Part shown: positions 22,443-57,300 of the stretch, in pieces
Layout of the letters: each line of letters begins with the position of its first letter
Position numbering within the stretch: position 1 is the first letter of the stretch
Assembly: GCF_007990755.1 (NCBI RefSeq)
Contig: NZ_BJXA01000033.1
Location: forward strand, 25,701 to 89,700
Origin: Nocardia ninae NBRC 108245
Lineage (GTDB): Bacteria > Actinomycetota > Actinomycetes > Mycobacteriales > Mycobacteriaceae
Direction of reading: 5' to 3'
Length of the DNA stretch: 64,000 nucleotides
Made by a program: the position numbers and the translations under genes
The notes under the pieces: model-generated
Told to the model about the DNA's origin: nothing
The model's input: only the letters and a program-made list of their open reading frames with translations
Database searches by the model: none

Positions 22443-22484
22443 GTTCCGAACAATGCCACGCGGGTCCGACAATCTTCCGCCTGG

Positions 22485-22532
22485 CGGGACATGGTGTAGC
22501 GATCACTCGACATTCGCCGCCACCGTGTCCCG
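22485..22532 (+). repeat. GGGACATG-type inverted-repeat element, copy A
   Basis: CGGGACATGGTG (22485-22496) pairs with CACCGTGTCCCG (22521-22532), twelve pairs with one G-T. The core contains TAGCGATCACTCG and CGCCGCCACC, shared with copy B and the 72-bp array at 51.8 kb. It lies between the glycosylase start and the 3' end of the kinase-like gene. Confidence 0.65.
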
Positions 22533-22617
22533 TTCGAGCCAGACGCCGCAAGTTCGTCGACCGTCGCCCTCGTTCGAGCCGGGCGCGACTGCCAGGCGCG
22601 TTCGCGCGTGACTTCGC

Positions 22618-22684
22618 CGGGACATGGCCGCCCACCGGGACACGGTGGCGGTGGGGCGGCGTGTGATCGCTCCACCATGTCCCG
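22618..22684 (-). repeat. GGGACATG-type inverted-repeat element, copy B
   Basis: Opposite orientation to copy A. Arms are CACCATGTCCCG (22673-22684) and CGGGACACGGTG (22636-22647), with an extra GGGACATGG at 22619-22627. Read on the - strand the core contains GGAGCGATCAC, nearly identical to copy A. The outer arm ends 7 bp before the stop codon of the neighbouring gene. Confidence 0.65.
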
Positions 22685-22691
22685 TTCGGAC

Positions 22692-50936: not shown

Positions 50937-51078
50937 AGCTTATATCGCGCAGCTGAACGGGGTTCGACCGAAGCCGGGTGCCTGGGTCACGCGCTGCTTC
51001 CGGTGGCGTGTACGTGTGGTGAATCCCGAGTTTCCCCGTGCGGCGAGCTGTGTCAATCGGCAGGCATGTGCTTAAGCT
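50937..51078. promoter_or_regulatory. Divergent leaderless promoters of ribF and the metal regulator
   Basis: TAAGCT occurs on the - strand (complement of 50937-50942), 7 nt before the ribF GTG, and on the + strand at 51073-51078, 7 nt before the regulator GTG 51086. The same hexamer and spacing in both directions support a pair of leaderless promoters. Confidence 0.6.
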
Positions 51079-51085
51079 CGGGTAT

Positions 51086-51838
51086 GTGCCCGGTAAACGA
51101 GACATCGCCACCCGCCGTGAGCTAACCGACGCTGCCGCGCCGACCCCGGCCACCGGCGGCACCGCGACGATCGCGCCGGTGCTCTCCTCGGTCGCCCAGG
51201 ACTATCTCAAGGTGATCTGGACCGCACAGGAGTGGTCCCAGGAGAAGGTGTCGACCAAGCTGCTCGCCGAGCGCATCGGGGTGTCCGCGTCCACCGTCTC
51301 CGAGGCCGTGCGCAAGCTCGCCGACCAAGGGCTGGTCGAGCACGCCCGCTACGGTTCGATCACCCTCACCGAGGGCGGGCGCCGGGCCGCGATCGCCATG
51401 GTGCGCAGGCATCGGCTGATCGAGACGTTCCTGGTCAACGAGCTCGGCTACGGCTGGGACGAGGTACACGACGAAGCCGAGGTGCTCGAGCACGCCGTCT
51501 CCGAACTGCTCATGGCGCGCATCGACGCCAAACTCGGCTACCCCGACCGTGATCCGCACGGCGACCCCATCCCCTCCGTCGACGGCGCCGTACCCACCCC
51601 ACCGGCCCGCCAGCTCAGCGACTTCCGCGCGGGCGAGTCCGGCCGGGTGGCCCGCATCTCCGACTCCGACCCCGACATGCTCCGCTACTTCGACTCCGTC
51701 GGCATCGCGCTGGACACCACCATCACCGTGCTGGAACGCCGAGATTTCGCCGGCACCATAGCAATTCGGATCGGCACCGCCGAGACTCCCACCGATCTCG
51801 GCAGTCCCGCTGCCGAAGCCATCTGGCTCACGACTTAG
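51086..51838 (+). CDS. DtxR/MntR-family metal-dependent regulator
   Basis: 250 residues. N-terminal winged helix SVAQDYLKVIWTAQEW and LLAERIGVSASTVSEAVRKL; dimerisation/metal domain HRLIETFLVNELGYGWDEVHDEAEVLEHAVSE with Glu/His metal ligands; C-terminal FeoA/SH3-like domain (DFRAGESGRVARISDSDPDML). Probably a manganese- or iron-sensing repressor, in the place of mycobacterial sirR. GTG 51086; no Shine-Dalgarno but TAAGCT 7 nt upstream. The repeat array begins 6 bp after its stop. Confidence 0.9.
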   Translation: MPGKRDIATRRELTDAAAPTPATGGTATIAPVLSSVAQDYLKVIWTAQEWSQEKVSTKLLAERIGVSASTVSEAVRKLADQGLVEHARYGSITLTEGGRRAAIAMVRRHRLIETFLVNELGYGWDEVHDEAEVLEHAVSELLMARIDAKLGYPDRDPHGDPIPSVDGAVPTPPARQLSDFRAGESGRVARISDSDPDMLRYFDSVGIALDTTITVLERRDFAGTIAIRIGTAETPTDLGSPAAEAIWLTT

Positions 51839-51844
51839 TCGTCC

Positions 51845-52556
51845 GACGGGACATGCGGGCGCGGTTACCCCCACTTCCGCGCCGCCATGTCCCACCGGCT
51901 CATCGCTCAGCCGTCTGACGGGACACGAGGGCAGCGCTGCTCGCACCTTCGCGCCGCCATGCCCTGCGGGCTCACCGCCCAGCCGTCCAACGGGACACGA
52001 ACGCGCGGCTACCCACACTTTCCCGCCGCCATGTCCCACTGGCTCACCGCCCAGTCGCCCAACGGGACACGAAGACGCGCCATCCAACGGGACACGAAGG
52101 CGCGGCTACTCCCGCTTTCCCGCCGCCACGCCCCACTGGCTCACCGCCCAGTCGGCCAACAGGACACGAGGGCAGCGCTACTCGCACCTTCGCGCCGCCA
52201 CGTCCCGCAGGCTCACCGCTTAGGCGTCTGACGGGACATGCGGGAGCGGTTACTCACGCGTTCACGCCGCCATGTCCCGCAGGCTCACCGCTCGGTCGTC
52301 CAAAGGGGCACGAGGGCGGTCCCACCTTCACGCCGCCACGTCCCGCAGGCTCACTGCCTAGTCACCAACGGGACACCACGGAGCGACCACTGCACGTCCA
52401 CGCCGCCACGTCCCGTCGGCCCACCACCTAGCCGCCCAACGGGACATACGAGAGCGGCTACTCGCAGTTTCGCGCCGCTATGTCCCGTTGGCTCACTGCC
52501 TAGTCGTCAAACGGGACGTGAGGGAGCGGTTACTCGCACTTTCCTTGTCCCGTTCG
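51845..52556. repeat. 72-bp tandem repeat array (about ten units)
   Basis: Units start at 51845, 51917, 51989, 52061, 52086, 52158, 52230, 52302, 52367, 52438 and 52510. Most are exactly 72 bp apart; the 52061 unit is a 25-bp fragment, 52302 is 65 bp, 52367 is 71 bp and the last is cut short. Each unit begins (A/G)ACGGGACAYG, has a core near GGAGCGGTTACTCGC and CGCGCCGCC, then CAYGTCCC, and ends in GGCTCACCGC and AGTCGTCC-like sequence. The first and second arms are inverted copies. The array fills almost all of the gap between two convergent genes. Not coding: the odd units break any frame. Confidence 0.85.
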
Positions 52557-52565
52557 ATGGGGTGG

Positions 52566-53348
52566 TCAGCAGTTGAAGTACTTCTGGAGGCGGGTGGGGA
52601 CGCCGTCGGCGGAAGCCTTTGTCCAGCAGACGTTGTGGGGGAAGTAGACGTAGGTGGCCCAGCCGTCGGGGGTGCGGCGGACGATGCGCTGGGTGTCGCC
52701 GGGGGCGTCCCAGGCGATGACCGCCCAGTTGCCGTCGCATTCGGTGACGGTGGCGTTGTGGCTGCCGAGTTCACCGATGTCGTCGAGGTCGTGCACGATC
52801 GATTGCGCGGCGCAGGGGGCGGGCAGGTCTGGTTCCTGGAAGCGCAGTTCGCCAGCGGCGAGCTCACCGTCGCGGACGAGGAAGAGGCTGTGCATGCCCT
52901 CGGGGACCGGGGTCGTGCCGGGAGGCGGGGTGCCCATGCCGAAGTGGTAGCAGCCGATCGGGACCGAGAAGGTGGCGGCGCCGTTGCCGTCGGTGACGGC
53001 GTCTCGGCGGAGTACCTCGTTGCTGCCCAACGGGATGTCGCGCTTCGACGGGTCGCAGGGCTGGATCAAGCTGAGATTGACCGGCACGTTCGGGACCGGC
53101 GTGCCGGAGAGGGTTCGCGTCCGGATCACCACGGTGCCGGTGCCCTGCGGTGGATTGCCGGGTGGCGGCGGCACGATTTGAGTGGGTGCGGCGGTGGGTA
53201 CGTTCGGCGCCGACGTCGACGTCGGCACGGTCGTCGACCGATCGCGCGACGGTGTCGATGGCTCGTCACCATTCCCACCGCAAGCCGACGCCAGCACCGC
53301 CACCGCGATGACCGCTAACCCCTGCTGCACCATTCTGCGGACAACCAT
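52566..53348 (-). CDS. Secreted lipoprotein with Ig/Cna-B-like domain
   Basis: 260 residues. Lipoprotein signal ending VLASAC (Cys about residue 23), then a Thr/Pro/Ser-rich linker to about 70. The mature domain reads VVIRTRTLSGTPVPNVPVNL and VTDGNGAATFSVPIGCYHF, like a carboxypeptidase-regulatory or Cna-B beta sandwich, and a C-terminal half with several Cys. Function unknown. ATG 53348 has GGAGG 8 nt upstream. Its stop lies 9 bp from the repeat array. Confidence 0.8.
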   Translation of the reverse strand: MVVRRMVQQGLAVIAVAVLASACGGNGDEPSTPSRDRSTTVPTSTSAPNVPTAAPTQIVPPPPGNPPQGTGTVVIRTRTLSGTPVPNVPVNLSLIQPCDPSKRDIPLGSNEVLRRDAVTDGNGAATFSVPIGCYHFGMGTPPPGTTPVPEGMHSLFLVRDGELAAGELRFQEPDLPAPCAAQSIVHDLDDIGELGSHNATVTECDGNWAVIAWDAPGDTQRIVRRTPDGWATYVYFPHNVCWTKASADGVPTRLQKYFNC

Positions 53349-53801
53349 CGCCCTCACCTCCCGATCAGGCCATCAGATACTCGACCTATCGCCGTAACCC
53401 ACGCCATGGTTACCCCAGGTAAATCCCCATACCCGCATTCGACTCGAAATCGTTCCCGCCGCGTCGAGTGGCACATGGTGGAGACCTGTTCTCGCACTTT
53501 GCCGCAGCCATGTGCCACTCTCGCCGCCGAGGGTGCGGGTGGCCGGGTGTGTCGTCACGCGGCGCCTTCGCCCTGGATTTGATCCGGCGAATCAGGTCGA
53601 CCGCGCCGTTGGGTCCAGTCCCGCTTGACGGCGGATGGGCGCCTGATCGAGCGAGCACCGACCGTTTCTGCGTGAGCTGCTTTGCGCAAGCGGGGAATTC
53701 GCACAACAGCCGGAATCTCGAGAGGGAGCATGACTAGCCAGCGAACCACCGAGCGGGACACCGGCCCCATTCGGTGGCGGGCAGCGCTGCCGTCGGTTCG
53801 A
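53349..53801. other. Intergenic region with one inverted-repeat element
   Basis: 453 bp between the lipoprotein start and the DUF4345 gene. I see no convincing gene. It contains the palindromic element at 53466-53520 and a GAGCGGGACACCGG run near 53751 that recalls the array arm. Confidence 0.5.
53466..53520. repeat. Variant inverted-repeat element with compensatory arms
   Basis: GAGTGGCACATGG (53466-53478) pairs perfectly with CCATGTGCCACTC (53508-53520), 13 bp. Its core has TGGAG, TCTCGCACTTTGCCGC, matching the array core. The arms differ from the array's GGGACA/TGTCCC by a matched C/G change, so pairing is conserved. Confidence 0.6.
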
Positions 53802-57003: not shown

Positions 57004-57300
57004 GCGCTGCTCGGCCAACGAGCCAGTTAGCTTTCCGCACAGCCGAGGATCGCGGAAGTCCACCCCGCCCTCGACCACCCGGACAGCGGCAAACCTCAGC
57101 AGACCAGGCACTACTCGGCCAACGAACAGGTCAGCCTGCGGCGTCAGCCGGGGTCACGAAAGTCCAGCCCGCCCTCAACCACCCGGACAGCGGCAAACCT
57201 CAGTGGACCAAGCGCTGCTCGGTTAGCGAGCCGGTCAGCCTTCCGTGGCCGGGATCGCGGGAGTCCGGTCGGCTCCCGACTGCCGGGGCAGCGCCGCTCC
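57004..57300. repeat. 104-bp tandem repeat, about 2.8 copies
   Basis: Units begin at 57004 (GCGCTGCTCGGCCAACGAGC), 57108 (GCACTACTCGGCCAACGAAC) and 57212 (GCGCTGCTCGGTTAGCGAGC), exactly 104 bp apart. Copies 1 and 2 share CACCCGGACAGCGGCAAACC; copy 3 diverges after about 60 bp. Period is not a multiple of 3 and no gene fits. It occupies part of the 578-bp gap upstream of pptT; the remainder holds nothing clear. Confidence 0.75.

Follow-up and report, generated by a model that had tools for sequence, protein, structure and literature searches.

A 72-bp tandem array in Nocardia ninae belongs to a dispersed family of dyad-symmetric elements and repeats the end of an adjoining gene

In Nocardia ninae NBRC 108245, a dtxR/ideR-type gene is separated from a convergent lipoprotein-like gene by a tandem array of 72-bp period that fills the gap and is located at 51840-52560 of the window (the whole stretch of 64,000 nucleotides that was analysed). 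The array belongs to a dispersed, dyad-symmetric and lineage-specific family of elements biased towards gene 3' ends. Its spacers copy the 3' end of the dtxR gene, and the array therefore grew by tandem duplication of an element together with 26 bp of its flank. From the step shared by arrays and from flank matches elsewhere, we infer flank-capturing growth at all loci. The array is read here, with moderate confidence, as a BIME-like array of a Nocardia dyad-element family, in which arrays grow by a fixed flank-capturing module and a protein presumably reads the arms.

The array and its element family

The preliminary description reported about ten units with a 72-bp period, extending from 6 bp after one stop codon to 9 bp before the other, and this observation is confirmed. 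The left gene ends at 51838 and the stop codon of the right gene lies from 52566, leaving a gap of 727 bp with ten recognisable units and one 25-bp stub (Table 1). TRF gives a period of 72 at 51840-52073 (score 263) and 52083-52543 (score 437), along with overlapping rows with periods of 97, 169 and 241. With up to 2 mismatches allowed, the pattern of the downstream arm matches at 16 places in the window, 10 of them inside the array, and 0 of 100 shuffles reach 16 (3.1 +/- 1.7); the upstream-arm pattern has 13 in the whole window, reached by 1 of 100 shuffles (3.8 +/- 2.2). The inverted arms that had also been described are present, but their pairing is imperfect and several units fold weakly. 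The interpretations that accompanied the description are, taken together, partly supported.

Table 1. Features in and around the array, in window coordinates
Feature	Position	Strand	Start of CGGGACA or variant	Remarks
Type-B element	22478..22540	+
Second type-B element	22628..22691	-		opposite orientation; one element at the orthologous gap of G291
dtxR/ideR-type metal-dependent regulator gene	51086..51838	+		Pfam PF01325, PF02742, PF04023; start uncertain, longest ORF from 51038
Unit 1	51840..51911	+	51847	72 bp
Unit 2	51912..51983	+	51919	72 bp
Unit 3	51984..52055	+	51991	72 bp
Stub	52056..52080	+	52063	25 bp, left arm only
Unit 4	52081..52152	+	52088	72 bp
Unit 5	52153..52224	+	52160	72 bp
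Unit 6	52225..52296	+	52232	72 bp
Unit 7	52297..52361	+	52304	65 bp, 7 bp short
Unit 8	52362..52432	+	52369	71 bp, 1 bp short
Unit 9	52433..52504	+	52440	72 bp, well paired, -31.4 kcal/mol
Unit 10	52505..52560	+	52512	last, shortened before the right arm
Convergent lipoprotein-like gene	52566..53357	-		no Pfam match; name judged from its own sequence
Type-A single element	53461..53523	+		arms GAGTGGCACATG / CATGTGCCACTC; single in N. ninae and G291

A search of Rfam with 51000-53400 returned a sole match, at chance level (E = 0.79) and outside the array, and collections of plasmid and phage DNA gave no match in the array. The array is also unlike a CRISPR array, in which repeats would be near-identical and spacers unrelated: here the repeat parts carry many substitutions, and the mean likeness of spacers within an array is 65%. 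Elsewhere in the window, 22478-22691 contains two inverted type-B elements at a distance of about 150 bp that flank a further lone arm, and 57040-57241 contains a direct duplication of 104 bp (about 1.9 copies, 83% matches) near a putative phosphopantetheinyl transferase frame.

The repeated element is a dyad of about 50 bp, consisting of GGGACATG, 30 bp and CATGTCCC, with inverted arms around a conserved CTCG core. In the N. ninae genome, blastn with the array gave 24 matches including itself, and a strict two-arm pattern matched 14 times forward and 14 times in reverse, against 0 for the backward control. A profile built from 40 units had at least 150 matches in the whole genome, while an iterated DNA profile at 10 bits or more identified 262 elements in 1.24 Mb and 0 in the reversed sequence. 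The 1.24 Mb are made up of 400 kb from the start of contig C1, the window and 40 regions around matches, and the densities are not genome-wide because the regions other than the C1 stretch and the window were chosen for holding elements. The elements fall into 72 clusters, 30 of them single and 42 with 2 to 17 units, and the multi-unit clusters hold 232 of the 262. Of the 78 arm matches in this sequence, 71 belong to paired elements, and of the remaining seven all but one lie at most about 100 bp from a cluster; GGGAC is 93-98% constant per position over 161 full-size units. The unit is thus found far beyond the window gap, and no known transposon or gene was found as its source, so that neither refuting condition of the preliminary description was borne out.

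Two subfamilies differ in their arms, which are CGGGACATG in the array-forming type B and GAGTGGCACATG in type A. An arm-letter rule assigns 229 of the 262 elements to type B and 14 to type A, leaving 19 undecided; the type-A copies comprise 11 single ones and 3 in clusters with type B, and never stand two in tandem. The type-A element of the window (53450-53554) has at least 35 matches in the genome of a relative, G222, 78-100% identical over 30 to about 90 bp, which suggests that type A multiplied there.

Elements are intergenic almost without exception, only 2 of the 262 lying inside genes predicted with our own simple codon-based gene finder. By gap type, the 72 clusters comprise 30 in convergent, 34 in tandem and 7 in divergent gaps and 1 at a contig edge, compared with 122 convergent, 396 tandem and 189 divergent among the 707 background gaps of at least 60 bp in the fetched N. 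ninae sequence. This corresponds to an enrichment in convergent gaps (Fisher p = 5e-6) and a deficit in divergent ones (p = 0.001). The median distance from a cluster is 57.5 bp to a gene 3' end and 590 bp to a 5' end, and the 3' end is the nearer in 58 of 72 clusters. On a larger scale, all 16 clusters in the first 400,000 bp of C1 lie between 113 and 312 kb, an uneven spread that is not significant (KS p = 0.09); on the G291 chromosome, the 38 loci among the matches listed crowd at 6.2-7.4 Mb (KS p = 0.01).

A search of the motifs across relatives, as proposed in the preliminary description, found a match to model R1 in 23 of 59 Nocardia genomes including N. ninae; the other 22 have 1 to 25 matches, and some single ones are marginal and may be due to chance (e.g. 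loci L106 and L107). Genome-wide, R1 has at least 150 matches in G291, from a close species, and 149 among the 150 matches scored in G237, and none at E <= 1e-4 in G293, a close relative. The hairpin model R2 matched in 4 of 160 genomes of the order, namely N. ninae (at least 33), a congener (26) and, outside the family, two genomes that have a single marginal match each, with 0 matches in the 18 same-family genomes outside the genus among those listed. Matches being nearly confined to the genus, the element family looks Nocardia-specific within the limits of the strict filters.

Elements of other species mostly keep the length and the core, and both arms have changed jointly, to GAGTGGCACATG, CAGGGGGACATG, CACCGGGAAATG, GAGGGGGAACTG and others. 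In alignment A2, which comprises 26 of 28 other-species loci (L106 and L107 being left out as likely coding matches) and 9 N. ninae singletons, two-sided changes occur in 17 of 19 arm pairs and fill 84 cells, against 28.5 in shuffled data, with 0 of 500 shuffles reaching 84. As judged from these alignments, dyad symmetry is kept through change, which suits a palindromic protein site as well as it does a hairpin. In G018 (L111:1470-1590 and L088), an additional imperfect palindrome, ACCGATCGGTCAGGGGGACATG with its mirror, prolongs the arms.

Growth of arrays at gene ends

The dtxR gap differs widely among relatives. No element is present in G293, in which the two genes overlap by 11 bp, or in N. 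lijiangensis, in which the gap is 87 bp and holds an unrelated hairpin. The gap of 86 bp in G251 contains exactly one element, and it is followed in size by the ten units in 727 bp of N. ninae and thirteen units in 915 bp of G291. Across 500 kb around dtxR in 32 named Nocardia, R1 gave 0 matches and R2 only three, with E > 0.2. When 12 N. ninae array loci were compared with G251 and/or G293, an element was found in 0 of 10 fetched G293 loci, and 7 of 10 G251 loci carry one to three elements at the gene end.

The comparison of copy number, proposed between strains, was made here between species. Across 43 orthologous gaps (two rows share an anchor), unit number differs between N. ninae and G291 in 25 of 28 multi-unit clusters, examples being 6/16, 17/8, 14/8, 3/10 and 10/13. 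Of 15 N. ninae singletons, 13 are single in G291, one has no element and one has 2, loci without an element in G291 being under-counted because its regions were fetched around G291 matches. No clean insertion with target duplication was seen; at the one locus specific to N. ninae that was inspected, a singleton at C1:266559, a deletion in G291 is possible. The suggestion of a mobile-element-like amplification is thereby supported in substance, as the family is dispersed and lineage-specific and array length differs at most orthologous loci compared.

The spacers indicate what was duplicated. The window spacer GGCTCACCGCCTAGTCGTCC copies the dtxR gene end ATCTGGCTCACGACTTAGTCGTCC with its stop codon; the apparent source is the last 14 bp of the gene, stop codon included, and a few bases beyond, and the spacer consensus is 72% identical to the left flank over the inner 18 bp. 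The coding part (ATCTGGCTCACC.CCTGA and similar) is found at the same place in other Nocardia that carry no array. By eye, a 12-unit array at another locus of G237 repeats the end of its own upstream gene, and the longer spacer of locus L136 resembles an inverted copy of a gene end. Among the 38 N. ninae arrays with a 26-bp spacer, likeness of the spacer to an adjoining flank reaches 60% in 16, in 13 of them to the left flank and in 4 to the right, one array matching both. Every match is at zero shift, and about 4% per left flank are expected under a null with a narrower range of shifts than the test itself. In the remaining 22, likeness to either flank stays below the 0.6 cut-off. A flank match could alternatively stem from a decayed outer unit. 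A symmetric paired-nick model, which duplicates the dyad centre +/-36 bp and predicts spacers half from the left and half from the right, was rejected because the window spacer follows the left flank over its full length.

Similar spacers in at least four arrays are due to the position of these arrays in a larger dispersed repeat, and the 38 arrays are therefore not all independent. A composite dispersed repeat of 0.7-0.9 kb, 82-87% alike between copies, was observed at L138:11000-11900, L146:9920-10810, L148:9900-10570 and L153:9640-10180, with parts in L126 and L145. It carries a short type-B array and a second palindrome of about 75 bp built on GGGTGCGGATCCCGAGAG, and its end motif is intergenic in 6 of 6 copies in the 1.24 Mb, with 0 in the reversed control. 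An argument that treated 72-bp dimers as separate duplications was dropped, at least two of them being longer in G291 (2 v 6 and 2 v 8).

Spacing is largely uniform. In 148 of 215 N. ninae elements, the two arms start 38 bp from each other. Between neighbouring elements, the distance from a right arm to the following left arm is 34 bp in 108 of 162 pairs, with 44, 33 and 45 as the next most frequent values, and 38 of 40 arrays contain this 34-bp step. In G291, whose arrays are mostly the same loci as in N. ninae, it accounts for 138 of 190 pairs and is present in 31 of 32 arrays; in G237 it accounts for 20 of 40 pairs and is present in 7 of 7 arrays. Neighbouring elements are nearly always co-oriented, opposite pairs numbering 4 in N. 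ninae, 5 in G291 and 5 in G237. Off-size spacings favour +10 bp, and off-peak distances lie in helical phase in 12 of 23 cases in N. ninae (p = 0.0025), 10 of 20 in G291 (p = 0.008) and 1 of 4 in G237. The keeping of helical phase is suggestive, given that the choice of phase window followed inspection of the data and that loci are common to the N. ninae and G291 sets.

Proposed working and alternative explanations

In the proposed course of events, a module made of a non-autonomous dyad element, mostly near a gene 3' end, and 26 bp of adjoining host DNA is duplicated in tandem in steps of about 72 bp. A candidate protein would recognise the paired arms and cut and copy at a fixed distance, giving the 72-bp module; alternatively, it would bind along the array in register with the helix, with the result that the duplications which persist are mostly phased ones. 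The favoured reading is that the module length is set in one of these two ways by a protein that reads the arms, and a candidate protein-binding array, already named among the possible roles, fits the fixed spacing and the conserved arms. A role of the array as a buffer between convergent transcription units would likely be a by-product.

Against this reading stands the search for proteins, in which no enzyme or binding protein was identified. The Y1 transposase domain Y1_Tnp (PF01797) was found neither in the N. ninae genome nor in any of G291, G237, G222 and G251, the control being found in 5 of 14 known genomes, and a RAYT was rejected as the mobiliser on this ground. Among 31 Nocardia, PF01797 occurs in four (G003, G009, G018 and G052), of which G018 and G052 also carry elements; the genomes that were found to have no Y1 transposase include the type-B-rich G291 and G237 and G222, apparently rich in type A. 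A gene linked to the elements was likewise not found, as no family among 218 neighbouring proteins recurs in more than 3 of 21 genomes. The 22 arrays whose spacers match neither flank also count against the proposal. Within arrays the arms exceed the middle of the unit in likeness, which speaks for it, with 0.91 for the left arm, 0.76 for the right arm and 0.74 for the middle in N. ninae (n=3), and 0.92, 0.88 and 0.74 in G291 (n=6); the N. ninae right arms hardly do so, however, and the search itself needs the arms, which counts against it. The spacer interior in the same arrays (3 and 6, respectively) is 75-77% alike.

An explanation that requires no dedicated protein is that the arrays are passive VNTRs, in which an element settled once per gap, its flank was duplicated by chance, and slippage or unequal recombination did the rest. 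The failure to find an enzyme, the change of unit number at most multi-unit loci between two close species, and higher-order repeats inside arrays all agree with this explanation, and so does the likeness of spacers, which is 65% within arrays (27 arrays) and 36% between arrays, with 30% for shuffled spacers. However, a first duplication by chance predicts a period specific to each locus, yet the 34-bp step recurs in nearly all arrays of three genomes with largely different spacers, and type-A copies are not found in tandem (11 single, 3 beside type-B units). A purely passive origin is accordingly considered rather unlikely.

It is improbable, though compatible with part of the same evidence, that the array is a chromosome-organising binding site for gyrase, a nucleoid protein or similar, with the arms as half-sites on one helix face and with its length under selection. 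Binding by gyrase, IHF or Pol I is a mark of BIMEs. The 38 bp between arm starts in most elements, the preference for +10 bp among off-size steps, the arms that keep their letters where pairing is lost and the uneven distribution along the G291 chromosome point in this direction, and E. coli BIME-2 is described as gyrase-bound in the portions of PMC6379681 and PMC2817692 consulted. On the other hand, 36 of 59 Nocardia genomes have no R1 match, nor does G293 at E <= 1e-4, and the site is therefore not essential; moreover, the uneven spread does not reach significance in the 400-kb N. ninae stretch.

The role as an RNA hairpin array for bidirectional termination, in which each unit is a hairpin ending both convergent transcripts and arrays add up the effect, suits single copies better than arrays. 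Single copies fold well (means of -31.2 and -30.0 kcal/mol, with median z of -3.5 and -4.3 against base shuffles) and clusters lie near 3' ends with an enrichment in convergent gaps; several element-free relatives also carry, by eye, an ordinary hairpin in the same gap. Array units, however, fold weakly (mean -23.2 kcal/mol, median z -1.6), and much of the pairing is gone from these units, which makes a hairpin-terminator array less likely. After removal of seven of 47 elements, the array-rich alignment A1 shows arms that retain their letters, with pair covariation not above shuffles, and selection on the hairpin inside arrays was dropped as an explanation for this reason. Between 51600 and 52800, a search for terminators with a T tract found 0 sites where 0.3 were expected, so that the stable hairpin followed by a T tract of an intrinsic terminator is lacking in the array. 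Gene 3' ends also hardly differ in best hairpin energy, at -21.2 with elements (n=56) and -21.5 without (n=595), against -19.3 for the coding control. Termination by the array is thus judged unlikely.

Least probable, and very unlikely in our judgement, is a MITE, in which the arms would be the terminal inverted repeats of a non-autonomous DNA transposon mobilised by a DDE transposase. The inverted ends, the species-specific arm types that change jointly and the many matches to the window type-A element in G222 would suit it. Against it, no insertion sequence with the same ends came up in the search for arm matches in 1.24 Mb, 71 of 78 of which lie in paired elements, no target duplication was seen by eye in the flanks inspected, singletons included, and one spacer length at most arrays would not be explained.

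Relation to known systems and significance

The preliminary description knew of no named family for the unit, and none emerged from the searches; the architecture is of the REP/BIME type. According to the available text of PMC2817692, REPs and BIMEs are high-copy extragenic palindromes in regular alternating tandem modules, with length differences between strains and unrelated inter-repeat segments at each locus. Regularly spaced palindromic repeats in alternating orientation (mostly 38 and 34 bp) and intergenic tandem modules are likewise found in Nocardia. The likeness to the REP/BIME systems of E. coli (BIME-2), Stenotrophomonas and Xanthomonas, drawn from architecture only and from those parts of the literature, lies in alternating spaced half-sites, length changes and capture of gene 3' ends. 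In Stenotrophomonas, a RAYT transposase is tied to the BIMEs, and inter-REP segments capture the 3' end of rayt genes and vary substantially in length (PMC2817692, same portion), whereas the Nocardia spacer is 26 bp in most pairs and no RAYT was found. REPs themselves are described, in the part of PMC3733652 available, as single palindromes of 20-40 bp, in contrast to the Nocardia arms, which lie 38 bp apart from start to start.

The Pseudomonas REPINs are REP doublets that form hairpins, are extragenic and show compensatory changes of their ends, the ends of the GI REPIN being 71 bp apart (PMC3116915, in part). The Nocardia element resembles them in its extragenic position, in its pair of conserved inverted ends at a fixed distance and in the compensatory changes of its arms; in contrast to the REPINs as portrayed there, no RAYT was found and most Nocardia copies (232/262) lie in arrays of flank-capturing modules. 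The element is thus BIME-like in architecture and, with Y1/RAYT not found, not a member of the RAYT system as tested. In mycobacteria, which are related actinobacteria, MIRU/VNTR loci consist of intergenic tandem units with strain-variable copy number, to which the Nocardia arrays are alike in general outline. A motif of Bifidobacterium animalis, GGGACAG(N)15TGTCCC, which is intergenic in 20 of 21 copies, mostly nearer to a 3' end, and presented as a potential novel motif in the accessible part of PMC5217627, shares the inverted GGGAC/GTCCC arms and the intergenic 3'-end bias; its arm spacing is 15, and arrays are not mentioned in that part. No description of the Nocardia element was found in the literature searched, which included few papers from subscription journals, and the repeat-related text of a Nocardia genome paper (PMC5336288) contains nothing like it.

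The BIME-like reading of the Nocardia arrays has consequences beyond the window. One locus is visible in three states among relatives, with no element, with one element and with an array, and the host-derived spacers record the first duplication; the formation and spacing of BIME-type arrays are therefore testable largely by sequencing. Loci that differ in length between species are, in addition, candidate typing markers. It is tentatively proposed that BIME-like arrays in actinobacteria may be made by a RAYT-free route, in which a candidate protein would read the arms, as half-sites on one helix face, and duplicate a fixed module. Should this possible route be true, gene ends would have been copied into intergenic arrays at dozens of loci.
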